Assembly: GCF_020921035.1 (NCBI RefSeq)
Contig: NC_063157.1
Span: forward strand, 20,911,015 to 20,975,014
Reading direction: 5' to 3'
DNA: 64,000 nucleotides
Source: Rhodamnia argentea
Lineage: Eukaryota; Streptophyta; Magnoliopsida; Myrtales; Myrtaceae
Below the pieces are notes generated by a model. It saw only the letters and a list, made by a program, of their open reading frames with translations, did not search any database and was not told where the DNA came from. The position numbers were made by a program, and so were the translations under genes. Shown here piece by piece: positions 24,661-60,382 of the stretch; within the stretch, counting starts at the first letter, position 1; each line of letters begins with the position of its first letter.

Positions 24661-24674
24661 GGTCTGGGATCATT

Positions 24675-36863: not shown

Positions 36864-36881
36864 CTTCACGTGTATAAAGCG
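36864..36881 (+). promoter_or_regulatory. G-box plus TATA box of SOT-E
   Basis: Same CACGTGTATAAAG arrangement as before SOT-C, about 95 bp upstream of the start codon. Conserved without change after duplication. Confidence 0.6.
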
Positions 36882-36970
36882 GTGACCAAAAAAGAAACTA
36901 ACGCTCACTATCCACAAAAAGATCAGCACTTCACGTTCATCTCCTTGTTTCGATTCTTACTCGAACATCC

Positions 36971-37951: not shown

Positions 37952-38411
37952 GTGTTAATCACTTCCGCTTTCTCTATGCATGTCAGTAGAAATAAGCGAA
38001 GTCAATAATGGATAGATCCGCAATCCTCCTTCCTCGTTGGTGTAGTACAAAGATCTCAATAATCATTGACTTCTCTGTCGCTAGAGACCAAACAAGTATT
38101 TGATGTTGATTAGCTGTAAGGAAAGGAAAAAGAGAGAGGGTGTTTTGCGTTCGAAATCACAATCTGCTCTATAGTTCACAATCTCATCTCATGTTCCTTT
38201 GTTTTTGGAATAGAATGTTCTTCGAGAACTGGATAGGAGTTTTGAAATCAGGGGATTAGAAAGAGAAAAGGAGGGAGGAAAAAAAAATTATACTTAAACT
38301 GTCTTACTTGTCACTATGATGCCAAGGGTTCATATACAGATTGGGAAATTAAAAACGAAGTAATGAATCTAAGAGTTTTGACTAGATAAGCACGTCATAC
38401 TTCATCGGCAC

Positions 38412-41180
38412 TAAGGCTCTGTTTGTTTCGCCGAAAACAAATGATTTCGATAATATTTGCCTAATAATATCACTCGTATTGCTTGAAGTAATTAGTCAAT
38501 GAAAAATATCTTAACTATTAATAAGAATATATCTCTAAAAATTTTCGTAGACAATGAAAATATTTTTCATTAGTTCATTTTTATAAGTGTTGAGAGTGAC
38601 CATTTTTAGCATAATCGATTACCATACTGAAAAAAAAAAAAAAATATCGCGAAACTTATTGATTTTTTTCCCACCTTAACTTTTGAGTAGGCTACTCATC
38701 TAAATGTGAAATCACATAGACTTTGTCCCCGATTTGGTTCATGATGGACATAAAACGATTATGATCCAACCAAATGTCACAAAATGATGGAAGGGAACCT
38801 ATTTACTAACTATTCGATTTCTTGCAAATTTCCTAATCTAACGCGGGTGTCCCGCTTTGATTACATGTGAGACGTAGACTTACTTTGATATACAGAATGA
38901 TCAGAAATTATGGGGGTTTCAATCCCATCCTATTGTAAATTACAAATCTGTTAATCATGAGAAACCAAACCGAAATATGGATATATGCCAATTTTGGCTA
39001 AACCTTGCTTATGAAGCACCTGCGAGTACCCCAAAATAAAGGCCTTCCCAATTATTAAAATGCGCGATCATGTGTTTGGCGCAATCAGCCATAAGAGGTT
39101 TACCTAGCACCATGTTAAGAAATTGATGAAGGTGTGTGCACAAGAAATTAATAAAACTAACTTGCTAGGAATTGATTATGGGGTCCGTCATCACATGTGT
39201 TTCAAGGATATGCGACGCCTATAAAGCAATGAACTTGCCGGACTCTCTTTATGTGTGATGCACGTTCCTTGCTCATCCATGTCGTTCAGCGTCAAGCGGT
39301 TGGATTGTCGGATTATCTGTCGGAATCCATTGCACATTCCTTACTCATATGAGTTAGTCACCGACTTTATTTTTTCGATTAAGTTTTCCAAATAGAAAAG
39401 TGGTTAAATTGACAAAAAAAAAAAATACATATGGTTAACTAACTCATAGTAGAGTTGGTAGCCAACTAGTCAACGGTTTGATCAAAGAAATGTTGATAAT
39501 GCATTTAAATTTAAAGTGAGTAATGTCATTATAACAGTTGGTAAATTTAAGTACAGTTAACAAATGTAAATAAAAATTGGTAAAAGGGAAGAAAAGTTGG
39601 TAATTGAAAAAGAGAGCAACATTGGAAAATAACTCAAATGGGAGTTGGTAATCGAAAACTAGTTGATCATTTAATGTGAGAAAGCCGTTAGGTCGCTTTA
39701 ATTAAGTTTAGTAAATTCGGAAAAAAAAATTGATAAATTTAATCGGTTGCTAAGAAATGCAAACAAAAGCTTACAAACGATAACAAAAGTTGGCATATTA
39801 TAAAGAGAATAAACATCGATAGTAAACTCAATATGAGAGTTAACAATAATATGTTATATTTCAATAAAGATATGCGTTGAGTAACTAATATGAGAGCTAG
39901 CGATAATGGGTTGGCGATAACTCAATTAAGAGTTGAAAATGTAGATAGGTAATTTAGATTGATAATTTGTAAATATAGAAAATGGATTGCTAAACAAGCA
40001 AATAGAATTTGATACATAGAAATTGGTAACTTAAGAAAAAAATGTGCTCGTAAGTAATTCAAATGAGAATTGGTAATACCAAATTAGTCGGCAATTCTAT
40101 CCGACAAAACTTAGTAAATTATTGGGGTCTTACTACCTGGCTAGATATAATGTCTGGTGGCTTCTCGATCAATAAATTAGGAAATGAGAGCGACACCATA
40201 TGGACCCACGTAGAAGGGGCCTAACCTCTCATGTACATTTGAGATATGCTTGGAGTACGTGAGAAGGTGATAAATGCGCCAACTATATAATCGTGTTACA
40301 ATGATGTGGCCAACAAAAATTAAACCTGTCAAAATGGGTCATGAACATATTAAATTAGTTATATTCACTAAATGGGTAATAACTGAGTTTTGACTTGCTT
40401 AAACCTAACCCACCTCTATGACTCTCTCTTGTGCGCACGCGATCTTGCGCTTATTCACTCTGTGCTCTCACTTCAATTTGGATATGAGTTTTCATAGATT
40501 TTGTTAAATATGAAAGTGTTTTAACAATATGAGTCAAGTTGAGTATGGATCAAGTCGATTATATGTTACTAGATTTGTATTATATGAAAAAAAGTCACTT
40601 TGGGCCGGACCATTTTCAATCCAACCCAATCTACCTGTTTGACGGGTCTAGCGGGAACAACTCAAAAACCCAATCAGCTATTCAATTCATTGCACGACAA
40701 GGGACTCAACATGATGCGTTTGGTTCAACTTTGGGGCTCTAAAGATCTTTGGGTAAATGTTAGGGCGTTTGGGAAATTTTTTCGGTATCATTTTGAGCAA
40801 ATGCAATTATTGGCCAAGCTGAAAGTCCAAGTCAGGTGGGAATCTCCTACGGCTTTCAACATTTTTTGAAAGGCAACTTTTAGGGTTTTAATGAATTTTT
40901 CATCGTCTTGCTTACCCCTCACTAGTTTTATTTTCCTATAAAAAAAGAAAGTGTGAAAGAGAAAAAAGATAACAAAATACTTAAAAAATTATTTAAAAAA
41001 AAATAAAAAATTATTAAAAGATGTGTACAGTGAAAATTGATTTTCCTGTGAAAAATATTTTCTAATTTTTTTTCGGGTTTCATCCAAACACCGAAAAATA
41101 TAGTCATTTTCCTGTAAAATGATTTGTTGAAAAATATTTTCCAAAAACGCTTTATTTTTCGTGAAATAAATGGAACCTTG
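38412..41180. mobile_element. Candidate TIR-bounded element enclosing a SOT fragment (unit 2)
   Basis: Counterpart of 26,224-28,985. The left end TAAGGCTCTGTTTGTTTCGC is closer here to the inverted right end than in unit 1. It contains the second copy of the dispersed repeat (about 40,330-40,660) and the SOT fragment. The same doubts apply. Confidence 0.35.
39224..39332 (+). pseudogene. Sulfotransferase pseudogene fragment (unit 2)
   Basis: Same remnant as in unit 1. The 24-codon stretch at 39,261-39,332 keeps Cys in CRNPL (Arg in unit 1) and has Leu for Ser in VKRLDC. So the fragment was already truncated before the tandem duplication and has drifted since. Confidence 0.68.
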
Positions 41181-41356
41181 GCTCCTTTCCTTTTCTTTGT
41201 GATACTAACCGAATAATAAAAGTCTCCATTTCCCTTGTGCTATCTTGCCGGCAATAACCTCTCATACATTCATCCTTCCCGTGTTTTGGCTTAATTCCCT
41301 TCCACATACTAACGTATAAACCAAAGACTAACGGCGATCCATCAAGCATGGAGTAC

Positions 41357-41762
41357 AAATTTTCAAATAAAGGCATAAAATGCTCTCATTTTCTCAAACA
41401 AGAGCATAAAGTGAATTTTATTTCAAAGAAGGGCTTGAAGAGACCATATCATTATCAAATTAGGGCATGAAGTGGCCATGACAATTTTAAATAAGGGCTT
41501 GACACCGACTAGCTAAATATTCCAACCGATCAAGGGCATTTTGATCCAAAAACAATTGTAATTCAAAATTATTATTTTATTTTTTTCCTTTCTTTTTTTT
41601 TTCCTTTGTTGCAGCTTGCAAGGGTCACCTTCTCGATCATGGCCAATGGCTGGCCTTCAACCACTGAAGAAAAGATAAAAAATAGTAAAAGGGAAAAAGA
41701 AAGAAAAAAAAGGAAAAAATTTCAAAAATAAAAATAAAAGACGAAAATACCTTTAACCAGCT
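41357..41762. mobile_element. Long-TIR MITE, truncated by LTR insertion (unit 2)
   Basis: Left arm and centre of the MITE described at 29,161. The sequence diverges from unit 1 immediately after AACCAGCT, where the LTR start TGTCGCGACC takes over. Confidence 0.6.
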
Positions 41763-43148
41763 TGTCGCGACCTAAAAAATCAATTTTTCAAGCTAATGGA
41801 TTATGAGGTTAATTTTGATGACTAACCTAATACGGACTCTCCCAAGTCCTACCAAATCGCAACTTTGGTTAATTAGAATGATTTAGGATTCGGAGTCGCC
41901 ACTAACCATTTTGGGTAGGTTGATTAGAGAACTAAATAAAAATAGCGGGAGGACTATTCTTATTTCTACGAACCGGAGATTGTGGATTCGGGGACTTGGT
42001 TACATTAACTAATCAAAGCTAATGCCCTTTCGGTACCTTAATTCCATGAAAATCCTATATTTGACAACTTGATTGAGTTCACTTCAAAGTTTAGAAGATG
42101 GGGTTCTTTTTGGGGTTCGCTTATTTAAATGAATGCAATGCATGTATGCTTGCAATGACAATGAATTCTACCTAAATGACAATATGATATGCTCATGCAA
42201 AAATGCAAGACAAACAATGATATGCAAAGTTTAAATGACTAATTAGTGCATGCAAAATGATGTAAGATAATCTATCCTAATGGCGTGCAAAAAGCATGAA
42301 ACTAGCTATCCTATGACGCCGACTACATTTGACACGAAAACTATATTTAGCCTAAGTGACATGCAACTTTAGGTTAAATGATTTAAACATATAAATTAAT
42401 TTTAACTGACCTAGAATGCATGGTCCTAAACGCGATACTACATGACATGCGTATGACGTGGTAAAAAAAAAACATGAACATGCAACACATGATATGCGAA
42501 GTTATATGATATGTAGATGTGCAAAATGTTATTTTTAGAACATGGAAGACAACCAATGGGATATACAAAAGTATGAATGCATGGATGATATATGCTAATG
42601 TCCGAAAATATGGATGAAGGACTAAATGGTATACGAAAATATGATGCGATCAAAAGATAAAGCAATATCTCAAACGAGCAGATTTTTATTTTTGGAAACA
42701 CAACTTAAAGATATGCAAGTGATATTTCGAAAATATGGAATGCAATATATGATACTCGAAAATATATGAAGTGAATTTGGCTAGATAAATGAAATAATGC
42801 AGAATAGATATGCATGGAACGTGAGATATGTGAAAAATAACATGAAGATATGCATGGGATTTTTTTTGTAATTTTTTCGTAAATAAGATGAGATATCCAT
42901 GAAATCACACAAGATGACAATGAACTGATTTTCGTTCCTTTTCTTTGAATTTTCGACTAGATTAAGAATATTCTGATTTGATTCTCTTTACCTAAATTTT
43001 CAAGATAAACTTAATGAGATAAAGTTTTTAGGAAACCTTATCTTCCTAAAGATTTAATCAGACATGGCTTATAAGAAACCATATCTCACTAATTTTTAGG
43101 ATTTTTTTTAAAGTTTATCAGGAAATTTAAATCAAACAAGATCCCAAT
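41763..43148 (-). mobile_element. Diverged Tat-type LTR, left part (outer element)
   Basis: Begins TGTCGCGACCTAAAAAAT and keeps, in the same order as the inner LTRs, GGACTCTCCCAAGTCC, GGAGTCGCCACTAA, GGTAGGTTGATTAGA, GCGAACCGGAGA-like and GCCCTTTCGGTACC blocks, with many differences. It is a relative, not a copy, of the inner element. From about 42,120 it becomes rich in ATGATATGC/ATGCAAAA motifs. The inner element inserted at 43,148, leaving CCAAT on each side. Confidence 0.65.
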
Positions 43149-44549
43149 TGTCGCGACCTAAAAAATAAACAAGTTAATTTTCGGGCTAATGGATTATCAG
43201 GTTAATTAATTAACTAACCTAACTCGGACTCTCTCAAGTCCATACCAAATCGCAACTTAAGGTTCAAATAATTAACATGCAATGTGTTTTGAATTTGGAG
43301 TCGCCACTAATCATTTTCGGTAGGTTGATTAGAAACCTAAATAAAATAGCGGGAGAAGACTATCTTATTTCCGCGAACCGGAGATTTTGAATTCGGGGAT
43401 TTGATTACGCTAGATTACTCTAACGCCCTTTCGGTACCATTTTCATGAAAAATATTTGATTTGGCAATTTTGATGGATTTTACTTGAAATTCAAAGATGC
43501 AATTTTTTGATTTTTTCTTCTTTTTTATGGGGATGTAAAACATTGAACTTTGTACGATATACACCATGGGTGATTTAGAAAGAAAGAAAACACAGCCAAT
43601 CACGAGTATTTACAAAAATAAATTAACATGTAATAATGCTAAATTTTGGGACACGTGACATGTCTAAAATAAACAAACAAATGTTCACACCAAACGATTA
43701 CATTTTTGTAGATCGAGATGGAAAGGGTTACCTTCTATTACACAAAATCTTACTCACGTACACGTTATGGCTTCCTTCAAGATCTCGGAGTTGGAAGAAC
43801 GTGGCTATCGTCGAAAAAAGGCAAGCAGTGGCGTTGTTGGATGGCGAGAGGCGAAGTACGTGCCGGGACTCGTCGAAGATGATGCTCGACTAAAACTCTT
43901 TTCTTCACTCTCAAATTTTCTCTTACGATTTTTCTCAAGAACTCTCTTTTTTCCTCTCTAAAGAATTTCTCTCACAAATTCTCTCAATTCTCTTCCACTC
44001 TAAAACTCTCTCAATTCTCTCTCACTCTCCCCCTAAAACTCTTCTCAAGAGCTCTCTTTTATAGGCAAAGTTCTCCATCCTTCATTCTTCATCTTCACTT
44101 CTTCACCTTCCATTTTCATCTTCTCTTTTTCATCTTCATTTCTTCACCTTCCATTTTCATCTTCCCTTCTTCATATTCATCTTCCCTTCACCATCTTCCT
44201 TTCATTATCTTCTCTTCTTTATCTTCTCTTCACCATCTTCCTTTCATTATCTTCTATTCACCATCTTCCTTTCTCCATCTTCTTTTGGTATTTGCAATGC
44301 AGTCCCCGAAGTTTCAAGTATTTGCAATACAGTCCCCGAAGTTTTAAGTATTTGCAATACAGTCCCTGAAGTTTCAAATCTTCTCGGTGTATTTTTCCAT
44401 CCCGTGCCTAGTCTAGACGCATGCTAAATTAAGTGTTACGCTTGCCCAATTATATGCCAATGCAATGTACGCTAAAAATAAATATGTGAGATGATTTTTT
44501 TTATAATTTTTATGCAAAAAATAGATTAGTCAAAATTTAGGCGTCAACA
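43149..44549 (-). repeat. 3' LTR (element orientation), 1,401 bp
   Basis: Starts TGTCGCGACC and ends GCGTCAACA on the plus strand, preceded by CCAAT. It is slightly shorter than its partner through a 14-bp loss in the TTCATCTTC repeat near 44,170-44,190. Confidence 0.92.
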
Positions 44550-44563
44550 GTTGCCCCTCTTTG
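44550..44563 (-). other. Polypurine tract
   Basis: CAAAGAGGGGCAAC on the minus strand, directly upstream of the 3' LTR. It confirms the element's orientation. Confidence 0.7.
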
Positions 44564-44920
44564 AGTGGAGGCTCGTAGAGGTTCCGCTCAAAGATAAAAT
44601 TGAACCCTAAATTTTGACAGTGCAAATGATGAATGAGCTTTTTAGCGGGAGTTTTAATCCCATTTTTTATGTAATGAAGTGATGCAGATATGCAAGACTG
44701 TAAATAACATGTGTCATAATTCCTCTTTTCCATGTTAGAGAAACCTGCACATGGATCGCATACAAGAATACCTGTTTTACCAAATTTCTCGTAAGCTAAT
44801 GGTTCTCTTAATTTCCAAGTTTCTTTTTGCGGATGCAAGGATTTTAAGGTATCGGTGCCTTATACGTTACCGGAGGCTTCTTTTCGGTGCGAGACAACGC
44901 AAAATATGTGTGTCGTTTGA

Positions 44921-45212
44921 GATCACAAGAGCTACGTCGTTGTGAGTCGAAAGAAGTGGAATCAAGTTCACAAGAGCTACGTCGTTGTGAGTTGATTAAA
45001 TGTTGAAATCGCAAGTGCATATGTCTTCACGATTCGACAAAGGGGAAACAAAATCATAAGAACTACGTCATTATGATTTGGTTTGGATCAAAACCATGGG
45101 TGCTTATGTCTTCATGATTTGATAAAGGAGCCGAAAATCATAGGAGCTATGCCATTATGATTTGATAAGATGTCAAGATCGCCAGTGCATATGTCTTCAC
45201 GACTCGATAGAA
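44921..45212. repeat. Tandem repeat, ~85-bp units, Tat 3' region
   Basis: About three and a half diverged units, each with an ATCACAAGAGCTACGTCGTT-like block (partly self-complementary) followed by GCATATGTCTTCACGATTCG. It lies close to the polypurine tract. Confidence 0.7.
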
Positions 45213-47739
45213 GAGGCATATTGCCCGAATTGAACAATATTTGATAGGAGCACCGTCGAATAGAATTGATAAGTACAAAAGGGGCATATTGCACGAATTG
45301 AATCATAACAACTATCATCAGAAGAGTTGTTAATTTGAAAAGGGGTTTAGAAAACTTACCCGGGTTCTCCAAACGATTAATCAAGGAACGAAACAGATTG
45401 CTCGTATCGCGTACTGGTAGGCATTTGCCAACAAAACTTGCTCATTCAATAATCCTTGGATGAATTTCGAGACCTTGGGAGGGAACTCGAACATCGGGAA
45501 TGTATTACCTATCATAGAATGTCAGAGGTAACACACACAAAAATGCAATCACTCATACTATGGTTCATGCATAACCATTCCGTCAAGTTTGCATTACCAA
45601 TTTTGTCCAGGGAGGTTCTCACATGACGAATACCTCGAATGTGAGCTGAATGGGGGGACTTCAGTCCGAAAGGGCTTTCACTCACTCTCGAGAAAAGCTT
45701 TTTATCCTGTTTGCAGGATTCAAAAGAAATCACTCAATCTTTCCAGCATCGCATTCGATAAGGATCCGAGTAATCTCGCAATTGATACAACCGAGCCGAT
45801 CCGGAGGTCTTGATTAGGACCGTAATGAGAGCTAGGTCAAAGGTTTACAAAGGGGACTCTAGTTGAGTCAAGGCTGCTGAAATGAATTTCTTCATCATCT
45901 CGCTCGCATTTACAAGTCAAGAGCCCCGCAAAAATGAGAGAAATAATTTTGCTCGAACTTCTTCGAGTGATGCTTAAAATCATTTAACTCTATGTTAACT
46001 CAAATGCCCTAATCGGAAGAGACTTTGGAGGGTTATAACGTAGGCTAGGATTGGGGACCGAGGAACGAAAAGGCTCGTTTTGGCTCAGAAATTAAATGAG
46101 AAGGGGCTTGACGTTGGTGATCATCATCGACTAGTCACCGATCTTGGTCTTCCGGAAATGTCTTGAGAAAGAATACCATCATTGAATGAGGGATGGTAGT
46201 TTTCTACCGAAAATTGCACTTTGCAAATTGATTTCTTGGGGAGTCTTCTTCACAACAAGTGTCCGTCAAGGATTTGCAAGAGACACAATGCAAACATGTA
46301 CATGGAATTTACAACTTAACGTGCAAAAATGTACATTCAAAATTCAGAAGTACTTTACAAATGAGTGTGCATTGGCCTTACTTTTGGTAGGCACTTTGCT
46401 TTTTCTATGCTTGAAATTTTCATATGAGATCGGTCTTTGCTTTTCTTACTCCCGACTCTCATTTTTCTTTTTTTTTTTTTTTTTCGAGAAGAGATTTCTT
46501 TTCCCCTTTTTTTTTTTTTTTCGAGAGCGGGCCCTTCTCCTTTAAACCGAGTTTGCCTCTCCCCCCCTTTTTTTTACAATCCCATGATTTTTAACCAGGA
46601 ATTACAACAAACATAAACATTTACAAAGAAAAATTATGTAAACATAAAAAATCTAGCATACAAGAAATGAGTCCATTCGGGAATTTTCTGTTGACCCGAC
46701 CATCTCCAATTCTAATCCTTGGGAAAATGCTATCTTCGTCTTTGGAATGAGCAAATGATCACCAACGGGGGTTTAAGAAATGAATTTGCGAGGCTCAAGT
46801 GGGCTATGCAAAGAATGAAGTGTATAGGATAGAGAAGTGAATGCTCTTCATCATCCTAAGGCACTTGAATTAAAATTCGAGTATAAATGCAAAAGAAACA
46901 CCCGAAGATTAATGTCGATCCGAGCAAGAAAATTTCTAACCATTTACCTCGTGTTGCTGCTGGAATTAACTCGTCTGGACCCCGATGTGGGGTGGTTCTT
47001 GACAGGGGTAAAGAAATGAAACCACCGCTCAAAAGGGGTAATCAATGGATCACCCGTAGTGTTTGGGATAGAGAACTGAATGCCTCTGTCATTTCGACTA
47101 TCGTACCTTTTGCGAGAAAACCTTTTACCTTGTGAAATGCGGAACTTAGCCACCGTTCAACTCTCCTGAAAAAATGGGACGTGTTTGGGAAAGGATTGCC
47201 TTTCATCATCCCGCTCTGCCCCATTCTATACATTCGATGTATCTTATGTAGTTCATGTTCCTTATTCAGAGTTGGTAAATTAAACATGAGGAACAGTCAT
47301 GCGCAAACTATGCAATGTATGAGTGTTTTTGAGCATATAAAATGCAGCAACTTTTTATCTTGGTGGACGGAATTCGCAAGCACATAAGAAACTTCTTAGG
47401 GGCGTGGATTGGGAGTTGCCCCTGCTCATGCAAATGAGTTGCAAAACTTCATTATCTGGTTCGAGACATGAGATTGTCAAAGGCTTCAAAAATTTCTCAT
47501 TTCATTAATTTTAGAGAGAAGGGATACTTCCCTATCCGGAAAGGTAGTGACCCCTGTGAAAATCAAAAGGGAAAGCGTCAATGTACGTTCTCACGTTCTA
47601 AACGAGTTGAAACGATACCGCTTTACCCTTGTACGTATTCCTTGCAAACTTTGAATTGAAAAGATCAATTCATCCGGATCGAGCTGTATGTCCGGGATGT
47701 TATCTCTCCAGGTTTTGTAACCATCTTGGCTGAGTTTCA
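45213..47739. other. Non-coding filler of the Tat 3' region
   Basis: Only short, unrelated ORFs on both strands; T and C homopolymers at 46,460-46,570. No further captured domain recognised. 47,881-48,699 is similar and may contain the decayed tail of the response-regulator piece. Confidence 0.4.
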
Positions 47740-47880
47740 ATCGGCACCGAACTGCGAAGCAAAAAAGTTTTTATTAATCTTTGTACATTGATGCCAAATC
47801 CCAGGATCGAACCCGGGATGCCTCGGACCCTTGTCATTCCCCCAACCACTAGGTCGTGGTGATGTTGGCGTCCATGGTTG
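47740..47880 (-). mobile_element. tRNA-derived SINE-like unit inside the Tat element
   Basis: The minus strand has an A-box-like ACCTAGTGGTTGGGG (RC of 47,841-47,855) and a perfect B box GGTTCGATCC (RC of 47,804-47,813), followed by a short tail with TTTTTT. Spacing fits a tRNA-headed SINE. It does not fold as a complete tRNA. Ends are approximate. Confidence 0.45.
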
Positions 47881-48699
47881 GTTCGCTTTTGCTATATTGT
47901 TCTCAAAACAGGTTGGCAATCCCCCGTCGAGAATAAAATAAGCATAATTTAGAGGTTGAAATGATCGAGAGCCAATTGGGACGATACGGAGTTACCCATC
48001 TTTGAGCCCGCTTGGCCTTTTACTCGTATTCTCCCAAGTAAGGCTATTCGGAATTTCTCTTTACGGGCGTTCGGAGGCGTCGTCCACAAATTGATTTGCT
48101 ACAGGCCTAGCTTAGTAAGGAACTTACGCATTTGACAAGAGAGGAGAAAATTCGTCCTTTAACTCTAGGCAAATTCTAGACAGTTAGAAAGTAAAAAATA
48201 TCCCATGTAGGGGAACTATACATGGAATTAAAGGAGTATTCATGCAAGATTGGTTCCACCTCTCTTGCTGGCCACTTCAACGATCAACCGATTCTGTCTT
48301 GGACTAAACACCAACAATCGTTGTTTGAAGACCCATAATAACTTGCTTCGGATCACGGCTCCGGAGGTCCTTCATTTCCAAAACGGGCTCATCAAGGTAG
48401 CAAGCTCATCATCAAAGTAATCTTCTGATTTTTCGAGCAATTGATACTCGAATTGGGCATTGTTACTTGCTAACACCGGTGACGATTGCTTGTGAGCGAT
48501 CGACTCCTTAAGCTTGAGCCTCCGTCGTTGCTCGGGAACTTGTAGGGATGATCAACTCGGTGCGCTACTAGAACCACCAGCGGAAGGTTGGTATGACCTG
48601 TATTCTTGATTGGGAAGTGGCCGGGTACCTTTTGCTCGGTAGGTTTTCCCGGAATTGATCTTCCACCAACTCTAGTCCGGTCGCCTTGGTCCCAAGCTG

Positions 48700-49364
48700 C
48701 ATCGTGCTTCCTCGCCTTATCTCTAACCCTTTGAAGGTGATTTGTGACACTTTGCATGGTGAGTCTGTCTATATTCATCATTTTGTGTACAGCCGGTGGT
48801 CGTCTTGAATTGATTCCTAGCTATCGAACCGCCTCAATGAATATAGAATGAAGCTTGGCGGACCAAAGGGGCCTTTTCTTTTGGACAAAATCGTCGTCGT
48901 CGCCTTGGTCGTGGTTTTTTTGTACGAGTAATTGCTTCCTTACAGCATGCAGCCAAATGTTTTGGAGCACTTGAACGCAGACCGGCTTCTGTAGGACGTC
49001 TCGAGCACCATGCGATATGGCCCTCGTTATGAACCGCTGATCATTACTTGCCGATACTACGATGACCTGTATGTCCAACTCGGAATCAATGATCTTTAAG
49101 AGACTGAAACCGTCCATGTCGATCCCTACGACGGCCTGTGCGACGACGATGTCAAAATCATATTTGTCTTGCCTCAAGCACTTCTAAGGCATCCGTTGCC
49201 TTCGCATAAGCAAAAACCCCGTACATGCAACTTCTCAGCATAGCAACGAGGATTGAGAGGGAAACGGGGTTGCCATCAATGGCCATGACTCGCAGATCCT
49301 CGGGATAGGAAGGTTCCCATACTTCCGCTTGGAATGAACGTGTTTTTCTTTTAAAACCTTCCAT
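48700..49364 (-). pseudogene. Captured type-B response regulator fragment (receiver + GARP domain)
   Basis: The receiver starts at YPEDLRVMAIDGNPVSLSIL and runs through ATDALEVLE, DKYDFDIVVAQAVVGIDMDG, LDIQVIVVSASND and HGARDVLQKPV. A GARP (B-motif) DNA-binding domain follows (KKRPLWSAKLHSIFIEAV, then MMNIDRLTMQSVTNHLQRVR). In plants this pair defines type-B ARRs, the cytokinin-signalling transcription factors. Lesions are a frame change near 49,175 and an in-frame TAG inside the GARP domain near 48,820. The phosphoacceptor position (SDV-type) reads AQA, and the acidic pair reads DG, so phosphorelay is impossible. The linker is very short and no intron is present. It lies sense to the element. 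Confidence 0.8.
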
Positions 49365-49667
49365 ATGTAGACCGAAAATGGCTGTTTCGACTAGAGAGCG
49401 AGCTTTAGATGTTCTCGGACTTGCAAAACAATTTGCCCGAAAATCACAAAGTGATGGTGGTCTTTCGTGACGAGTTCGGTGATCATTAGGTGCATGGAGA
49501 CTTTATAAACTTTTTCGATATGTTAGTCTCGCATATAGGTTCACGTTTTTTCTACGAAAGATGACAGCTTTTTCTCTCCTTTCCGGTCTTAGTGCCTTGG
49601 ATCCATTTCGTAATAACTCTTACCTCTCACTCAATCTGTCATCTTTTTCTTTTCTGATATGGAGGAG

Positions 49668-49828
49668 CCCTCAAATCTTTTCGCTTTCTCTACGAACGAG
49701 GCGGTTATTTCCCTCCTCAAATCTTTTCGCTCCCTCCTACGGAAGAGGCGGTTATTTCCCTCTTCAAATCTTTCCGCTTTTTCCTACGAACGAGGCGGCT
49801 ATTTTTTCTCAAATCCTTTTGCATCTAC
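49668..49828. repeat. Tandem repeat, ~47-bp units, Tat 3' region
   Basis: Three and a half units of the form CTCAAATCTTTTCGCT...ACGAACGAGGCGGTTATTTC. Tandem repeats in the 3' region are a known trait of Tat elements. Confidence 0.75.
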
Positions 49829-50279
49829 CTATGTGAAGGCTTTTAATGCTTCTCCTTTCGGCGTTCAGTCAAATCTGACAAGGAATTTACGCATTTAAGC
49901 ATGATAACATTCTCGAATAGTATTGTTCTTTGCCCCTTGATTAACTCTAGGCGTAAAAAGAAGAATATCTCACATGGGGACTTTGTAACAGTACATTCAT
50001 TCACGCATGTCTCTACTTTTCTTGAGGATTCATAAGGGTTGGCTAGTAATGCTCAAAAGAGCGACATTTCGAGAGCCCCTAATAAAAAAACTCAAGCTTC
50101 ATGTAGATTCAGAGTTTCATCGGCGTTGAATTGGCTGGATCGTGACACTAGGGAAACTCCAATTGTAGTGATGCATGTCTCTTCCCTCGAAGGGCATTGG
50201 TTCTCGCCTCGCAAACCGACTTTCGGGATGCATCCCCAACGAAATCGATTGTGTGAGAACCCGCTCTCGGGGGATGAAT

Positions 50280-50787
50280 TGACAAATGAGCATTTTCAAT
50301 GCTCGGATGTGGCTCATCAAGGAACATGTCACCAAAGGTTATGGGGCTGCTACAAACATGGCAAACAGCGGTGTTAAGAGCATCCCTATACCTCTTGTTT
50401 TTCGCTCGAAGCTTTTTGTTTTCATCCCTCAGAAACGCAAGTTCATGACTTTCACTTTGAACCTTCAATCGGGCCCGCTTGTTTTGAAACCAAAACTTGA
50501 CCTTCAAGGGCTCCATTCCTAGCTTCCGGCTCAATTCATTTTTTCATTTCCCGTTCACGTAAGGGCACTCCTTGAAGGCAGCTTCGAGCTCTCTAATTTG
50601 ATGTTTTCTTTCACAGGGTTTGACTGCATGTCTTGCTACCTTTGTTGCGGTCGAGATCTTGAATTTCACCGCCAAGGGAGTTGGGTTTTACTGCTTCAAT
50701 GCCGGATCTAGCCTCGAAATCCAGCAGTTCGCTCTCGGGGATGTCTAGGTTGGTTCCCCCTAGTAAGTACCGGTAGCCTCTAAACAT
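50280..50787 (-). pseudogene. Captured HD-ZIP class IV fragment (homeodomain + zipper-loop-zipper)
   Basis: The minus strand shows, in order: an N-terminal segment (GGTNLDIPESELLDFEARSG) like the start of PDF2/ATML1-type proteins, homeodomain helix 1 (HQIRELEAAFKECP), helix 3 (LGMEPLKVKFWFQNKRARLK), a leucine zipper (SHELAFLRDENKKLRAKNKR) and a zipper-loop CxxC (CHVC). It stops at an IENAHL motif, before the START domain. There is a frame change near 50,600 and a TGA inside the homeodomain at about 50,550. No introns interrupt it, although host class IV genes are spliced, so it probably came from an mRNA. It lies sense to the retroelement and is not a working transcription factor. Confidence 0.78.
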
Positions 50788-51279
50788 GTTGGATTGAAAT
50801 ACCTCTTACTGCCTTTTGTTCACTCTACTCTCTGCTGTATGCTTACTCTTTCCAAATTCTTTTGAGTAAACATGTATGTTCCAGAGCCTCCCTTTTAACG
50901 TGGATGAAAACTACTAAGCCGGTGCTTCTCCCAAGATTTCGTGTTTCCCGCTCTGTCTTCTTCATTTCCTTCTGACATGGTGGGACCCTCAAATCTTTTC
51001 ACCAGTATGCTTGTCCCTCTTTTAATATGGCGGAACCTTTAAGTCATTTCGCAACTTTTTTGAATTCGTGAGCCTCGAGATGGTAGATCCGCGATTCACG
51101 GACGAAACGTCTGTAGTTTTACCCGGATAATTAACTCGGCCCCCACAATAATTATTGCTATGACTTTTTCTGCCCTTTAAATTAGGATTTAACGCCGAGA
51201 TGATCATCGCTTTCATATCTTCATCTCCAACCTTCTAAGCGCTCTTTCGCATCCATTCTTTTCGGTTGCTTCAACAACA
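50788..51279. other. Non-coding part of the Tat 3' region
   Basis: Contains a diverged CCTCAAATCTTTTC unit (about 50,988) related to the tandem repeat at 49,668, and the presumed leader of the antisense ORF. No other coding signal. Confidence 0.4.
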
Positions 51280-52011
51280 ATGGCCTCCCTCCCTGCACAC
51301 GTCTTCTCGGCTGAGGTTTTGGCCAAATGGGAGAAACTTTATAATCTCCTAGGCCAGGGCTACTCTTATATAGCCAACCATCCGGAGGTCGAAACTGAAA
51401 TTCGTCTTATGTTTAGGGATATGGACACTACTTCTATTCAAGGTACCAAGTTAGAAGAGGAATATAGGATCTTCCCTACCCTCTTCACTAACTTCCCGGA
51501 GGCTTACAATCATGCTCATCAAGATGTTACTTTGGCCTATCTTGTGAGGGCACGCTATCAGGATCGGACAGATAACTTGGTGTTGGCCGGTCTTGTAGCC
51601 GACAATTATAAGAAGGCCCTTGACTACGGTAATGATCAAGTCTCCTTGCTGGTTCGTGAGAGGGGAAACTTGGTGGAACGTTTGGCCATGTCCCAAACCA
51701 TCTTCGAGCGGGATCCGCTCAATATTGTTTTGAAATTCCAATGCTCATGGCTCGAAGAAAGGATGGACGATCTGACCCTGGATATAGCCCGCGGGAGAAT
51801 GCTGATCCATGACTTGGAATCTGCTGTCGAGTATCACGAGGACAAGGTAGCCGAGCTTAAAGAGAAATGTGAGCTCCTCCTCTTTAAGCTGGCGGATCTT
51901 GATTCTCGAAGCGATCGGTGTAGGCGGAGCATCAATTGTATGGAGGACCAGTTAAGCTCCTTTGTGATGCTCATTAGGGCTCGGTTTGGCTTTACGTTCC
52001 CACCCCGATGA
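51280..52011 (+). CDS. Antisense ORF inside the Tat element, 243 aa, unknown function
   Basis: Uninterrupted ORF on the strand opposite to gag-pol, placed just beyond integrase. The start context AACAACAATGGCCTCC is a strong plant initiation site. The protein is acidic to neutral and mostly helical in look. Residues 1-110 contain YSYIANHPEVETEIRLMF and FPTLFTNFPEAY; residues 150-230 are heptad-like (DLESAVEYHEDKVAELKEKC) and may form a coiled coil. No known domain is recognised. Extra ORFs, sometimes antisense, are known from Tat elements, but I cannot say this is one of the described types. Its intactness contrasts with the broken gag-pol. Confidence 0.6.
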   Translation: MASLPAHVFSAEVLAKWEKLYNLLGQGYSYIANHPEVETEIRLMFRDMDTTSIQGTKLEEEYRIFPTLFTNFPEAYNHAHQDVTLAYLVRARYQDRTDNLVLAGLVADNYKKALDYGNDQVSLLVRERGNLVERLAMSQTIFERDPLNIVLKFQCSWLEERMDDLTLDIARGRMLIHDLESAVEYHEDKVAELKEKCELLLFKLADLDSRSDRCRRSINCMEDQLSSFVMLIRARFGFTFPPR

Positions 52012-52302
52012 TCTATTTGTAAGGCTTTCTGATGGATGAAATGAATGCAAGTTTTTACCGATTTCATCTTGGTCGTCATATTTTTTCGCAAGATAACCCC
52101 TTTTACTCTGTGAATATGTAAATCTCACGCTACGATGGGCTGATTCAATTGGGCCAGAGAGACCCCCCATTCGAAACGATCTCTCAGCAAAAATTGGTAG
52201 CGATGAAACAAACGAATGCCCAAATGTGAACAACTTGTGAATCCGTATTAATATTATAACTCGATTATGAAAACATCAGAGTAAATCAAGTATAATATTT
52301 CT
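52012..52302. other. Spacer between integrase end and antisense ORF end
   Basis: The integrase (minus) and the plus-strand ORF converge here. No further coding signal. An AT-rich stretch near 52,240-52,300 could hold poly-A signals for either. Confidence 0.45.
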
Positions 52303-53310
52303 TTACGTAGTCGAATTCACTGGGTTGGTAAATACACGACCATCCATCTCGGCCAGAATCAAAGCACCACCAGGGAGCACCTTCTTTACTATATATGGAC
52401 CACCATAGTTTGGAGTAAACTTCCCTTCTGAGAGTGGGACTATTGGCAACAATTTTCGCAAGACCAGGTCATTGATCTGAAAATATCGAGGCCGAACTTT
52501 TTTGTTGAATGAATTAGCAACCCTCTGCTGATAACACCGGCCATGACATATAGCCTTAATTCTCTTTTCATCGATCGATTCAATTGGCTTGCCCTCTTGG
52601 ATCCATTCAGCTTCCGTCAAGATAGCTTGAGACAGTATACGTAAGGAAGGAATTTCCACCGCAACCGGTAGAACAGCCTCCATTCCATATACAAGAGAAT
52701 ACGGGGTTGCCCCAGTAGATGTCCGGATTGAGGTTCGATATGCCATAAGTGCAAATGGCAACCTCTCATGCCAATCGCGATAATTTTCAGCCGTCTTCGC
52801 CAAGATTTTCTTAATGTTCTTATTGGTGGCTTCTACTGCTCCATTCATCTGAGGACGATATGGGGAAGAGTTCGGATGCTTGATCTTGAATTCCTTAAAC
52901 AATTTGTCCATTAGTTTGTTGTTTAAGTTCGAGCCATTGTCGGTGATTATGGCTTCGGGTGAACCGTATCGAGTAATGATGTCTCGATGGATAAATTTCA
53001 CGATATTTCGTGCCGTGACCGCTAAATAGGATGCGGCTTCGATCCATTTGGAGAAATAGTCAATCGCCACCAAGATGAATCGATGTCCATTGGATGCTTT
53101 AGGGTTGATAGGGCCGATAACATCAATGCCCCACATAGAAAACGGCCATGGTTCGGATAAGCGATGCAACTCATTTGGAGAGATATTAATTTTGTCACCA
53201 TGAATCTGACATTTGTGATGACTTCGGACATGCTGAATACAATCTCTTTCGAGCGTGAGCCAATAATAACCCAATCTCATAATCTTCTTAGCTAACAAGT
53301 GGCCGTTCAT
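52303..53310 (-). CDS. Integrase (degraded pol C-terminus)
   Basis: Open frame of about 335 codons. The zinc-binding part has HMNGH, but only one Cys of the usual CxxC remains (SHHKC). The catalytic core shows GIDVIGP (Asp), ITDNGSN (Asp) and GAVEATNK (Glu), the D,D35E triad. The C-terminal part has FTPNYGGPYIVKKVLPGGAL, a GPY/F module of gypsy integrases. Two stops and a local frame change at 53,311-53,376 separate it from RNase H. The ORF ends normally at 52,303. Confidence 0.8.
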   Translation of the reverse strand: MNGHLLAKKIMRLGYYWLTLERDCIQHVRSHHKCQIHGDKINISPNELHRLSEPWPFSMWGIDVIGPINPKASNGHRFILVAIDYFSKWIEAASYLAVTARNIVKFIHRDIITRYGSPEAIITDNGSNLNNKLMDKLFKEFKIKHPNSSPYRPQMNGAVEATNKNIKKILAKTAENYRDWHERLPFALMAYRTSIRTSTGATPYSLVYGMEAVLPVAVEIPSLRILSQAILTEAEWIQEGKPIESIDEKRIKAICHGRCYQQRVANSFNKKVRPRYFQINDLVLRKLLPIVPLSEGKFTPNYGGPYIVKKVLPGGALILAEMDGRVFTNPVNSTT

Positions 53311-53376
53311 GTGTGGACCACGATCCCTTCATGTACTTCCATCATCGACGAATCGCTCCGGTTGAGTCAACGCATC

Positions 53377-54408
53377 TTAGCGGTGACGAGAATCGAATGA
53401 CCGTTTATACAAATTTTCTCCATTCAAGAAGAACTTCGAGGCCATCTTCCTTATGTACTTTTGGTCAGATACGGTACTTTTTTCGGGGAACTCCCGCTTT
53501 CGAATATAAGTCTTGATGTCATAGTACCACGGCTTACCATCGGGTTCATCGATTATGGCCATACAATATGCTGGCTTTTTAAATACCTCGATCTTCGGTG
53601 GGTCAACCTCAAGTCCATTGGCGACTTGTAACATTGAAGACAAGGTAGCCAATGCATCGGTGAATCGATTATGAGTCCCGGACAGATACTCAAATGAGAT
53701 ATCCTCAAATTTCTCCACCAGTTCATCCAGATACTCATGGTAGGGCATCAATTTAGCATCTCTTGTCTTCCACTTTCCAACAGTTTGAAGGATAATCAAA
53801 GCGGAATCTCCGAACACCTTGAGTCCGGCTATCCCCATTTCAATCGCAGCCTGCAAACCGAGGATGCATGCCTCATATTCTGCTATGTTATTTGTGCAAG
53901 AGAATACCAATTTTGCTGCCATAGGATAATGTTGACCACTTGGAGATATCAGAACCGCGCCCGTGCTCGATCCCGATAAATTGACAGCTCCGTCAAAATA
54001 CATAGTCCAAATGTAATCCTCCACCGACATGATTCGATCTTGAGAATGATAGGCATCATCATCTCGCCCCGGATTTTTAGCTAGGACATCTGCTATAGCT
54101 CGTCCCTTGATTGACTTTTGGGACAAATATTGAACATCAAACTCGGAGATGAGGATTTGCCATTTGGCAAGTCTACCAATCAAGGCGGGTTGATTTAGCA
54201 AGTATTTGATAGGATCGCACTCTGTCACCGTAAGCACCTGGTAATGCAAGGTATATTGCCGAAGCCCGTGCAGTACCCAGACTAACGCCGCACATGTTTT
54301 CTTTGCTTCGGAGTATTTCATTTCCGAAGCTGTGAATTTCTTGCTCGGATAATAAATGGCTCGTTCTTTTCCATCCTCTTTCCTCTCTTGGGCTAACATA
54401 GCACCCAA
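53377..54408 (-). CDS. Tandem RNase H domains (RT-linked RNH plus archaeal-type aRNH)
   Basis: One open frame of about 343 codons. The first half is the usual gypsy RNase H (AIYYPSKKFTASEMKYSEAK, ending in GRAIADVLA). The second half is a distinct RNase H fold: MYFDGAVN, then NNIAEYEACILGLQAA, GDSALIILQ and a late TDALATLSSM Asp. The catalytic-type residues D, E, D and D are all present. Two RNase H domains in this order are a known feature of the Tat group. It is part of the broken pol and has no start of its own. Confidence 0.75.
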   Translation of the reverse strand: MGAMLAQERKEDGKERAIYYPSKKFTASEMKYSEAKKTCAALVWVLHGLRQYTLHYQVLTVTECDPIKYLLNQPALIGRLAKWQILISEFDVQYLSQKSIKGRAIADVLAKNPGRDDDAYHSQDRIMSVEDYIWTMYFDGAVNLSGSSTGAVLISPSGQHYPMAAKLVFSCTNNIAEYEACILGLQAAIEMGIAGLKVFGDSALIILQTVGKWKTRDAKLMPYHEYLDELVEKFEDISFEYLSGTHNRFTDALATLSSMLQVANGLEVDPPKIEVFKKPAYCMAIIDEPDGKPWYYDIKTYIRKREFPEKSTVSDQKYIRKMASKFFLNGENLYKRSFDSRHR

Positions 54409-54411
54409 GGA

Positions 54412-55665
54412 CTAACTAAGGATTGTGAGGTAGAGGATTAAAGGTTGCCCCGGTGTTGGAGGAACAAGCACCGGTGGATTCATGAGATGCTGCTTCAGTT
54501 TCCCAAAAGCTTCTTCACATTCGCTATCCCATTGAACTAGCGCATTCTTCTTTAACAGCTTGAGGAATGACTTAGCGGTTTCTGATAACCGAGAGATGAA
54601 TCGAGCAATATAGTTTAGCCTACCCATCAAACTTCGAACTTCTTTAACCGTCGTCGGCGGCTTAAGCTCACGAATAGCCTTGACTTTAGAAGGGTCGACT
54701 TCGATGCCCTCTTGCCGCTACCACGAATCCGAGCAACTTGCCCGAGCTGGTCCCAAAGACACACTTAGCGGGGTTGAGGCGTAACTTGTACTTTCGGAGT
54801 CTGTCGAACAATTTCTTCAGCGTTTCGACGTGATCTTCTCCATGCCTTGTTTTTGCTATCATGTTATCGACGTAAACCTCAATCTCATTATGCATCATGT
54901 CGTGGAAAAGGGCAACCATGGCTCGTTGGTAAGTAGCTCCAGCGTTTCTGAGACCGAACGGCATCACTCGGTAATGGAACATTCCCCATGGTGTGGTGAA
55001 AGTGGTTTTCAACTTGTCATTGACATTCATCAAGATCTCGATTGTACCCGGAGAAACCGTCCATGAATGAAAACAATTCAAACCCCGCAAGATCGTCAAC
55101 AAGTATGTCGATATGTGGGAGGGGAAAATCATCTTTAGGATCGGCCTTATTCAAATCTCGATAATCGACACTGACCCGAATACGCCCATCCTTCTTCATG
55201 ACTGGGACTATATTGGCAACCCAATCAGAATATTCTGTAGTCTCAAGGAATCCGACGTTCAAGCGACTTCATGACTTCCTCTTTGATCTTCCGGACCAAT
55301 GCTGGTCCGGCCCTCCTTGACTTTTGCACTACCGGCTTAGCCGAAGGATCGATCGGCAAACAATGTTCGACAATGGAACGGTCAAGACCGGGCATATCTG
55401 CATAGGACCAGGCGAAAATGTCATGGTAATCCTTCAAGAGCTTAATCAAGCGCTCGGTCATCTCTTTGGAAAGGTTTGCCCCGATCTTAACTTCTTTAGG
55501 GTTTTCCGCATCGCCTAGGTTGACCGAGATAGTTTGTTCACTTGTCAAGGGCTTGATCTCCTCATGTCGTTCGAAATCTCGACGAATTTCCTCATAATCT
55601 GGACTGGACTCATCTAGGTCGTATACTTCTAAATCCACTAGGTTTCCCTCCTCATGTATCCCCAT
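54412..55665 (-). pseudogene. Reverse transcriptase, frameshifted, catalytic motif YVDN
   Basis: Four ORFs cover the domain: 55,665-55,243 (pre-RT, KDYHDIFAWSYADMPGLD), 55,262-55,017 (RVSVDYRDLNKADPKDDFPLP), 55,132-54,686 (GMFHYRVMPFGLRNAGATYQ and the active-site segment) and 54,630-54,412. The frame changes near 55,255, 55,040 and 54,720, and a stop separates RT from RNase H at 54,409-54,411. The active site reads YVDNM (codons GAT AAC at about 54,862-54,867) where Ty3/gypsy enzymes have two Asp. The enzyme cannot be functional. Confidence 0.8.
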
Positions 55666-56042
55666 GAAACATAAAGTAACAAAATCGGAAGGACAAACAG
55701 GGCTTAATTGCGGTGTGATCTTTTTTTTTTTTTTTTTTTTTTTTGAAGAACTTTATTTATTTATTTTTTATTTTTCAAAACCGTGGGACATGAATTCTTG
55801 AAGAAGCCCAACCCTCGGTTCTTACCATGATGACAAACTTGTTGGTCGTTGGTTATCGTCATCGGGTTAGTTTGGGATACTTCAACAAGATTCGAAAAAT
55901 GGTGCAATTTTATTGATATGAAATTACATCTTCTAGGAAAGAAAATCCAAGAGTGCAAGACAGAATAGAAATCCAAATGCGATCCAAAACCTAAAGGAAA
56001 CAGAAAATGTCCCACGTAGGGGATTGCATAAACATAAAGATG
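55666..56042 (-). other. Gag-RT spacer; protease domain not found
   Basis: Only about 380 bp separate Gag from the RT region. The spacer contains a 24-nt T run (plus strand, 55,721-55,744) and no DTG/DSG-type aspartic protease motif in any minus-strand frame. The protease appears deleted. Confidence 0.5.
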
Positions 56043-57678
56043 TTACTCCGAATCTAAACCCTCCAGTGGATCATCACACATGGCGTTAATGAATGATTTG
56101 GAAGGTTTAGGCGCCGGGTAAGGTTCCTCTTTATGCGCTCCGTCTTCAGATATAGCAGCAATGGTTACATCATCAAAACAACCGGCGATATCGAAGACTC
56201 CTTCATCCTTACTAGCACCAACCTGTCTGATTCCCAGCCCGAATACAGCATTAACTTTACTAGAATGATCCGGCAAAGGATTATTCTGGACATTTGGCTG
56301 TTTGTTGCCTTGGAATGAGAATGCCTTAGAATCAAGAAGATCTTGAATCCGATGCTTCAACACGAAACAGTTGTCGGTGTCATGTCCGGGCTCCCTACGG
56401 TGGTAATCACATTTCTTTGATGGATCATATTTTGGCGAGCTCGTGTTACCGGATCGTAGAGGCTCGAAGTCGTAAACCTCTCTTATGTAGAACCGCGAGT
56501 ACTGTGACGGGGTTCCCGGTAGAGGAGTAAACCGCCGAGGGGGCCGTTGATTCCCTCTTTGTCGTTGTGCGCCGAAATTAGCCTGCTGGCGATTAGGAAT
56601 CTGCACAATTGGCGTCCGGGTCATGGGTTTCTAGCTGTAGGTCATGTTAACCTGTGGAGCCGGTTCCTTATCTTTCCTTATCGCAAACCTCTTAGTCGTC
56701 GTGGTGACATCATCGTACCAACCTTTCTTCATACCGTTCTCGATTTCTTCAGCCATTGCGATGAGATGGCTGAATGACGTAGCAGACGGATCCCGCACTC
56801 GGGTTTTCATAATTCGCGGCAGAGTGGAAACAAACAACTTCATGAGCTCCCTTTCCGGAGGGACTGGTTTCAGCCGAGATGCCACATTCCTCCACCTGGT
56901 GGCATACGCTTGATTGTTTCTCCTTTCTTCATCTCAAGTCGTTCAAGATCTTCTCGGTGGTGAGCACGTCCAAGTTAAAGCTGAAATGTTTGATGAAAGC
57001 ATTAGCTGCCTTCTCCCAATCATCCATCCGATAGATCTCGTAGTCCGTATACCACCTCATGGCAGCTTCTTTTAAACTAGCCTGGAAAGTCTGGACCATT
57101 AGGGGGCCGTTGGTCCCGTGCTTATTCATTCTTGCCTGGTACATCCGGACGTGCTGAACCGGGTTAGAAGTCCCATCATACTTCTCGAAGTCGGGCATTT
57201 TGAACTTCTCCGGCACCGTGACCTTTGAAAAGACAAGACAAGTCAATCTGGGTATGTTGTGAGTCCCCTCGACCTCTCGGATCCTCTGTTCCATTTGGGC
57301 CAACCGCATGGCCGTATCACCATTCAATCCGGGGGCCACGGGGCTGGCTTGGGGGATTGGGACTACGGGCGGCGTGCTCGAGCTCACGCCCGTGAAGATC
57401 ATGTCTTCTAGCGGCATTGTCTGATAGGGAGCGGTTTCCGGGGCTTTACCGGAGTTGTCCATAGGAGGAATTGGAGCAGGAATGGTTAGCGGCGGGCTGG
57501 TGGTGGATGATTGAAGTTTGGCGGCGAAGGCAGCCATCATTTCTTCCATCTTTCGGGACATCATCCCTTCGAAGCGCTCGGTCAAGGAGCCAAGTTTCTC
57601 GTCTAGGGCAGCACCGACGGTGGCGTTGATGTCGGCCATCTTCCTTGCGATCGATCGAGTAATATGTGGAGGATCCAT
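56043..57678 (-). pseudogene. Gag, broken
   Basis: The first frame (57,678-56,929) starts MDPPHITRSIARKM, has a Pro-rich linker and enters the retrotransposon gag core (DFEKYDGTSNPVQHVRMYQA, then WEKAANAFIKHF). It is lost by a frameshift near 56,930. The core continues in another frame at 56,885-56,631, then meets an in-frame TAG, and the same frame goes on to 56,043. The last part has a CDYHRREPGHDTDNC zinc-knuckle-like motif typical of Tat Gag. There are at least two lesions, so no full Gag can be made from this copy. Confidence 0.75.
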
Positions 57679-58941
57679 GATAAATTACCTGTACGTAGTA
57701 ACAAACGCAAAATGAGTACAGAGAGCAAGAATATCGAGCCGGTCCATGGCATCCCTCTAGACTCAAACGAACAAAGTGATTATAGCCAAAGGATTGAAAC
57801 ATGTAATTTTCAGTTTATCCGCTTTTTAAAAAAATCCGTATTAATTCACACGTTGACTGAAATTCGTCCAAATTTTACGAGCTTATAGTTGAGAAGATGG
57901 TGAACAACTTTCATGTTGGCCAATCAGACTAGAAATGAGCGGATCAAATCAGTTTAATGTGTCTTTCCGAAAAATCGCATTCAGAAAACTGTTATAACCG
58001 CAGGTAGTTGAAAAAACGAAAGGCCATCTTAAATTATGAATTTAATTCTGAAATTTTGTAGGATATTAGTTGAAACATAGGTCTACAACTTTCATGTTTG
58101 GCACTTACTCAAAACTCGATCGTAGAATTTAGTAAAAATCGCACAACAAGAACAAGCCAAATCAGAATGGAGGACAACCGATGAAATTGTAAAAGCTACG
58201 GAAGCAAAGTGTGAAATTGGAAATAAGACAACGATACTCCTAAACCATGGACCAGCTCAAAATAAAAATGAGATAATAAGATAAAAGAGACAAGAAATTA
58301 CCGTTCATATGAAGAAAATGTCAATCACAAAGACATGCGCATGAATTGTGAGTTTAAATCTTATTCTATCTATCCAAAAGGCTTTTGCAAAGTGAAATGA
58401 TGAACAAGCGACATGTCGCAGCCTCGCGCGCAATCATCATGACTAGTCGCAGCCTCGCGTACAATAGTCATGACTAGTCGGGTTCAATCACTTCGGCTTT
58501 GTTCGTCGACAAGGGCAATTCTCATGCATCGTAGCCTCACGTGCATAAGAACGACCCTTGAGCCATTTTTTTGAAAAATTTTCGGGATCCAGGATGGGAT
58601 AACCTTTAGCGAAGCCTTACCGCCAAGGTTAAAGGACCATCTAAATGCCATCTTAAAACTATTAGTGTGACCCAGGTTCGGTCACGGGTTGTGTGCGATG
58701 TAGTGCAAAGACGATAAATCATGCACAACAATTAAAAGCAAACACCGCTTCAATGATTCAAAAGTTAAATCACAATTCCAATTCACCAAGCCTCGCAAAA
58801 CAAAGGGTTAGCCAATCACTCCTCCCCTTATAACTCCCAATCTGCAAAAACATTTAACACCTAAGAATGAGAATTCAACCAAAGTTTGCCAAATCAAGTG
58901 ATTCCTTTTTCATGAAATTATCCGGCCTAAGTCCTCTTAAA
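57679..58941 (-). other. 5' untranslated region of the Tat element
   Basis: No coding region is recognised. A short tandem repeat (GTCGCAGCCTCGCG...CATGACTA, two copies at about 58,415-58,479, with a related CGTAGCCTCACG at about 58,530) lies here. Confidence 0.5.
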
Positions 58942-58962
58942 TTCCCAATGAGTCGCTAAGTC
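58942..58962 (-). other. Candidate primer-binding site
   Basis: Directly after the 5' LTR, the minus strand reads GACTTAGCGACTCATTGGGA. The TAGCGACTCATTGGG part resembles a plant gypsy primer site that starts TGGCGACTC, with one change in the TGG. The match to a specific tRNA was not checked. Confidence 0.3.
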
Positions 58963-60377: not shown

Positions 60378-60382
60378 CCAAT

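Follow-up and report, generated by a model that had tools for sequence, protein, structure and literature searches.

Plant retrotransposons catch host sequences, mostly in single events, and keep extra open reading frames (ORFs) of unclear origin. In the LTR retrotransposon transductions of plants, such as maize Bs1 (PMC7264820, PMC13317346), captures are described as occurring in one or a few copies (PMC7264820). A survey of Retand elements covered recently active copies in 617 assemblies and, in the part of its account drawn on here, reports an antisense TRP28 ORF in 97% of clusters and sense ORFs without any known domain in the region between pol and the 3′ LTR, which measures 2,933–6,566 bp (PMC11963269). 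Orchid Ty3/gypsy elements are described as having acquired an m6A demethylase domain, with tested protein activity (PMC9289625). Among open-licence PMC papers, no report of response-regulator or HD-ZIP cargo in retrotransposons was found by title or abstract. Here we describe an element from the myrtaceous plant Rhodamnia argentea with both kinds of cargo, and consider it probable (approximately 0.82 for origin history and presumed function taken together) that it represents a Tat family equipped with two sense accessory genes derived from its host.

The window, a stretch of 64,000 nucleotides (contig NC_063157.1, positions 20,911,015–20,975,014, forward strand), holds a single LTR retrotransposon at 43149–60377, flanked by the target site duplication CCAAT (43144–43148 and 60378–60382). 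A purine-rich tract adjoins the lower LTR, which places the element on the minus strand; its genes, domains and flanks given below have this orientation, except the antisense ORF. In the LTR–LTR comparison, the 3′ LTR (43149–44549) was 98.2% identical to the 5′ LTR (58963–60377); over 1401 aligned sites the two differ by 11 substitutions, and they are further set apart by a single 14-nt indel (K2P 0.0079). If about 1e-8 substitutions accumulate per site each year, this would amount to a few hundred thousand years. A gag region with several broken frames (56043–57678) was assigned by position and order and had no Pfam hit at E < 0.03. It is followed by a piece of reverse transcriptase (54686–55132; RVT_1, 1.7e-17), an RNase H (RT_RNaseH, PF17917) with a second RNase H-type domain behind it (RVT_3, PF13456; together 53377–54408 by Pfam) and, next after this dual RNase H, the integrase (52303–53310; rve, 2.5e-11). 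The two LTRs, the target site duplication, the PBS/PPT region and the order reverse transcriptase, RNase H, integrase are those of a Ty3/gypsy LTR retrotransposon. Elements of the Tat clade typically have an additional RNase H of archaeal type (RVT_3), placed after the first RNase H and before the integrase, and the domain order assigns the element to this clade.

The region between pol and the 3′ LTR is about 7.75 kb long (52302–44550). It begins with a 243-aa ORF on the plus strand (51280–52011), antisense to the element and located between integrase and a flank that we call B2. This ORF had no Pfam family at E < 0.07 and no TRP28 match at E < 0.1; as TRP28 occurs in 97% of Retand clusters (PMC11963269), we file the element as Tat clade only. 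At the other end, pieces of the three minus-strand frames in 44550–48380, scanned for further cargo, gave no Pfam hit. A tRNA-like stretch suspected near 47800 was dropped, as the tRNA scan of 43000–61000 found none and Rfam had no match in the window. Outside the element, 41762–42100, at the end of a duplicated segment and 1 kb from the insertion, is 78% similar to the LTR start. The window also contains a 7.6-kb tandem segmental duplication (21961–29567 and 34148–41763, 97% identical) with sulfotransferase-like genes, including an open frame at 36971–37951; older tandem copies are visible as well.

Two genes lie between the integrase and the 3′ LTR in the orientation of gag-pol. The one nearer to the LTR (RR, 48375–49364) is, by Pfam, PDB matches and alignments, a processed type-B response-regulator-like gene with a pseudo-receiver, a GARP domain and a shortened C-terminal part. 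Its receiver matched Pfam Response_reg (3.3e-8) and ARR1 in PDB (3e-21); the GARP end by itself had a weak match to ARR10-B (E 0.49) and was covered in alignments to the full-length relatives P0002–P0005. Together they form a receiver plus GARP/Myb-like domain homologous to type-B ARR proteins, and the match extends down to 48381, the C-terminus of the donor. The phospho-acceptor Asp is absent from the element copies, which have A or a Q/T-A stretch in place of D, so that the protein could at best function in the manner of a pseudo-response regulator. In the window, RR is decayed: its frame changes near 49177 and again near 48500, and a stop lies between these at 48821–48823.

The other gene (HD, 50148–50802) matched the Pfam Homeodomain (8e-6) and PROTODERMAL FACTOR 2 in PDB (4e-16), and comprises a homeodomain and the adjoining zipper of PDF2/ML1 type. 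START and HD-SAD are absent: homology to the HD-ZIP IV protein P0010 stops at residue ~177, and an RR-derived tail follows, the start of which lies at 50153–50188 of the window copy in a shifted frame. This copy, too, is decayed: its frame changes near 50620, and 50544–50546 is a stop codon. In four diverged copies, the sequence just after the HD domain corresponds exactly or nearly to residues 515–546 of the Eucalyptus response regulator P0005 (E 3.5e-10 in L031, 2e-8 in L034, 1.7e-7 in L032 and 1.6e-6 in L033), and by coordinates it is in frame with the HD match in all four. The HD gene is thus, judged from these alignments, a chimera of exons 1–3 of a processed HD-ZIP IV gene (MERISTEM L1/PDF2 type) and the last ~30 residues of an RR protein. 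No poly(A) remnant was seen 3′ of RR or HD on unscored inspection by eye.

Both genes are framed by similar flanks. Downstream in the sense direction, A1 (48117–48268) follows RR and A2 (49880–50024) follows HD (alignment score 56, against 41 for the best of 200 shuffles); upstream, B1 (49635–49838), which contains a ~47-bp tandem array, precedes RR and B2 (50952–51061) precedes HD (61 against 53). Neither flank recurs elsewhere in the window, and a host origin of A and B is unsupported, as the flanks of the host RR gene on C4 are not similar to them. Because the HD gene is chimeric and shares its flanks with RR, an RR cassette would have been captured and duplicated, and the front of one copy exchanged for HD-ZIP. 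By eye, each A flank shows, in sense, a pyrimidine-rich stretch with CTAG at its end, followed at some distance by GTAAGT or GTAAAT, resembling splice sites around a small exon. The B1 array has three AGATHY sites, compared with 1.1 expected, a number reached by 10% of shuffles.

Donors of both genes were located in the same genome. With the Eucalyptus protein P0005, a host RR gene was found at C4:18643073–18647384, with exon breaks at residues ~58, 110, 228, 254, 460 and 538 of P0005 and visible GT..AG ends; it has introns in at least five places, four of them within the part kept by the element, and the element RR is contiguous across these four. The HD donor is a MERISTEM L1-like gene on C3, with exon boundaries at residues 77, 114/115 and ~179 of P0010. 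The element HD runs without a break across the first two boundaries, and its similarity stops (~177) at the end of the third exon. With four RR and two HD junctions lacking the donor introns in the element copies, comparison with the host genes confirms that both are processed, that is spliced. For comparison, 8–11 exons are reported for Eucalyptus HD-Zip IV genes (PMC7528242), 4–11 introns for pear type-B RR genes (PMC5312876) and 2–11 for those of B. napus (PMC9408017), as given in these sources. The synonymous distance of HD to the ML1-like gene was 0.58–0.73 in five of six copies and 1.18 in the sixth (L024, C11:19040532–19050529), and it was saturated against two HDG2-like paralogs. The HD of L024 is a distinct form, perhaps an older or exchanged allele.

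Protein relatives of RR and HD were collected with a joined query. In the RR tree, 19 element copies and P0001 form one clade (support 100/99). Its sister, with 86/78, consists of P0002 and P0003 (ENA proteins of 5 and 86 member sequences, respectively); P0004 (Syzygium), P0005 and the C4 gene stand apart. P0001, an R. argentea protein annotated as a two-component response regulator ARR12-like, is by its position within the element clade probably a copy of the element that entered the annotation as a gene, which should serve as a warning to annotators. P0002 and P0003 have lost the same C-terminal segment as the element RR, and could be ORFs from elements in a different plant. At the phospho-acceptor position, A is found in P0004, P0005 and the C4 gene, and D in the type-B protein P0030; as the donor line already had A, the RR was blind to phosphorylation before its capture. 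A type-B-like response regulator without this Asp is present as a Myrtaceae host gene on C4, and also in Eucalyptus (P0005) and Syzygium (P0004).

The original prediction had taken this cargo for pieces of an ARR-B and an HD-ZIP IV regulator, two unrelated host families in the orientation of a Tat element flanked by a target site duplication. Pfam, PDB and the alignments to relatives bear out both identities, both genes share the strand of gag-pol, the LTRs, the CCAAT duplication and the Pfam domains agree with the element as described, and the proposed intron-less, spliced origin holds against the C4 RR and C3 ML1-like genes. What was described as fragments within one insertion turned out larger: RR runs from its start to the C-terminus, HD is a HD-ZIP/RR-tail chimera, and the cassette is multi-copy.

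The genome of R. argentea (346.66 Mb in 74 contigs) was searched with RR, and 150 matches were scored among 467 candidates, the best of them (99%) being the window itself. From these 150 we drew 20 loci of ten kb, a non-random set of the top-ranked matches and of others chosen for their spread of identity and long open frames. The sense order integrase, antisense ORF, B2, [HD], [A2], B1, RR, A1, 3′ LTR was seen in all 20, each with the antisense ORF and with A1 about 3.5 kb from the 3′ LTR, spaced as in the window; HD and A2 were present in 19. RR frames of 333–351 aa from the first Met were open in 12 of the 20, and HD frames of 229–248 aa in three. Both genes were also found in each of the four diverged copies (3.4 kb each), where L033 gave no A2 or B1 match at E 1e-3. 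In the RR-first survey HD accompanied RR in 23 of 24 loci. Starting from HD (query P0010), RR was found in all 44 element HD loci listed: in 30 of them by coordinates, on the same strand and 0.5–2.5 kb downstream (chance ~0.0005 per locus), and in the remaining 14 by sequence, with A2-B1-RR-A1 in each; the two locus sets partly overlap. The mean p between copies was 0.074–0.090 from HD to A1 and 0.077 in the LTR, compared with 0.051–0.061 in integrase, antisense ORF, B2 and the 3.5-kb stretch, so that the cassette region is a little more diverged than its neighbours. RR and HD are a fixed cassette of a multi-copy family and no one-off. The search for further elements with this cargo and for its donors, suggested together with the original prediction, has thus yielded many loci and both donors, and the alternative that these are host genes present at the site without the element is answered by their being found again at many other places, each time within flanks that belong to the element.

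Selection was examined at two depths. From host to element, raw dN/dS was 0.29–0.43 for the receiver and 0.33–1.06 for GARP (higher in younger copies) in seven copies that share history, and 0.15–0.45 for HD against the ML1-like gene in six copies (0.15 in L024), to be read beside the NG86 expectation of 0.62–0.65 under a context-matched neutral null, which applies to copy pairs. Values below one imply past constraint on the protein. Between recent copies, pN/pS was 0.343 for integrase (null 0.620; 11 of 20 copies) and 0.431 for the antisense ORF (null 0.648; 12 of 20), compared with 0.574 for RR (null 0.630; 11 of 14 open copies, L011, L021 and L028 omitted) and 0.631 for HD (null 0.620; 6 of 11). 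By these values integrase and the antisense ORF are under constraint, RR hardly so and HD not. Shared and singleton changes gave a similar picture: N/S was 0.47 versus 1.59 in integrase (p 0.0024) and 0.74 versus 1.30 in the antisense ORF (p 0.089, a trend), and 1.95 versus 1.86 in RR, 2.33 versus 1.79 in HD and 2.08 versus 2.47 in the noncoding control. Amino-acid constraint on RR or HD was thus undetectable among recent copies, where the pattern resembles noncoding DNA and not integrase. Whole-RR pN/pS was not consistently below the null in eight old-young or between-subfamily pairs, and pairwise tests by domain were mixed. We read this as constraint in the past, with relaxed or diversifying change now.

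As regards the origin of the cargo, which we regard as shown or strongly supported in outline, two other routes may be considered. Helitrons, Pack-MULEs and other DNA transposons that carry gene fragments are classically recognised by parts of unrelated genes lying next to each other, and such a transposon could have inserted into the element; however, both genes are processed, the inverted repeats in 44400–52400 are short and scattered with none bracketing the cargo as terminal repeats, and the cargo sits at one place with element flanks in 20 of 20 ten-kb loci, no empty version being among them, so that we hold this to be highly improbable. That RR and HD were captured independently, the similar flanks and tail being due to chance or to a second capture of an RR tail, would agree with the modest similarity (~60–80%) of A1 to A2 and of B1 to B2, and with an EGRDMYHH-like segment that the HD tail keeps and that is gone from the element RR, P0002 and P0003. 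Yet tail, A and B surround both genes in matching order, each of them scoring higher than the shuffles or matching with E values of 1e-6 to 1e-10, and the retained segment requires only that the duplication be older than its loss from RR; we consider independent capture unlikely. Of the stepwise or joint capture envisaged at the outset, the stepwise form is supported.

The origin being the same, RR and HD may now be roleless passengers copied along with the element, a serious rival that we place only a little short of an even chance. It accords with their noncoding-like amino-acid evolution among recent copies beside a constrained integrase, with the stops found inside the 118-residue RR match in 31 of the 150 scored rows, and with the splitting of RR over two or more frames in several HD-first loci. 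It sits less well with host-to-element dN/dS well below one for receiver and HD, with the presence of both genes in old and young copies alike, and with the rarity of shared stop codons (1/113 in RR and 0/80 in HD, compared with 10/250 in the noncoding control), a low count that may partly reflect the choice of loci with long open frames. Alternatively, as the original prediction had suggested beside a decoy action, the cargo could act through RNA: small RNAs made from it might silence the RR and ML1-like genes of the host, or small RNAs of the host might use the cargo. All 21 copies tested share exact stretches of 19–25 nt with the host RR gene, and 20 of the 21 share 13–21 nt with the ML1-like gene (L026 has lost HD), which would allow this; but the remaining shared stretches are short only, flanks and frames fit protein genes, and the deep dN/dS below one implies past protein constraint, which makes the RNA route improbable.

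Under the reading that we prefer, host-derived genes in a Tat family, the spliced transcript of a Myrtaceae type-B RR-like gene, its Asp already lost, would have entered the family ancestor, probably by template switching during reverse transcription. The cassette of flank B, gene and flank A would then have been duplicated in tandem, and the front of the upstream copy replaced by exons 1–3 of a spliced MERISTEM L1/PDF2-type HD-ZIP IV transcript, so that this copy retained its two flanks and the RR tail; in the modern copies, RR would later have shed further pieces. Both proteins would be translated from the element's sense transcripts. The HD chimera, with homeodomain and zipper kept and START gone, and an RR protein unable to take phosphate at the usual Asp could bind DNA as regulators or compete with host proteins, a tentative suggestion to which we give somewhat less than even odds. 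More doubtful still is the fuller picture of a two-gene regulatory module made from the host, a phosphorylation-blind RR and a homeodomain-zipper protein, in which both products are made, meet meristem and epidermal regulators and steer element or host expression in those cell layers from which the germ line arises. The LTR showed no excess of sites for the HD-ZIP IV L1 box or the type-B RR motif, both in their generally known forms, which counts against the explanation with its function included and argues against a simple loop. Jumping-gene elements rarely keep host genes family-wide, and here intron-less regulators are standard equipment. A single genome shows the donors, the introns that were lost, the succession of events and numerous descendants, which makes it possible to date and test the steps of capture, duplication, domain swap and trimming.

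Compared with the described systems, the present family resembles Retand elements, as the survey presents them, in being Ty3/gypsy with a long region between pol and the 3′ LTR that holds an antisense ORF and tandem repeats, and differs in two sense genes with recognisable host domains, in the length of this region (~7.75 kb) and in that TRP28 was not found (PMC11963269). Like Bs1-type transductions, it carries processed host sequence in sense orientation, for which template switching is the proposed means (PMC7264820, PMC13317346); unlike the captures described there, the pair is family-wide, with an internal duplication and a domain swap (PMC7264820). As in the orchid elements, a host-type domain has been retained through the diversification of a Ty3/gypsy family; the domain there is an enzyme, whereas here two transcription-factor genes, one of them chimeric, are recognised from sequence (PMC9289625). 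The family-wide pair and the sense genes with known domains in this region differ from what PMC7264820 and PMC11963269 describe. Should the functional reading hold, these would be DNA-binding or transcription proteins encoded by an element, as are the accessory regulators HBZ and Tax of complex retroviruses (PMC11963269), an analogy without homology, and the module would be the plant counterpart of such retroviral regulators.
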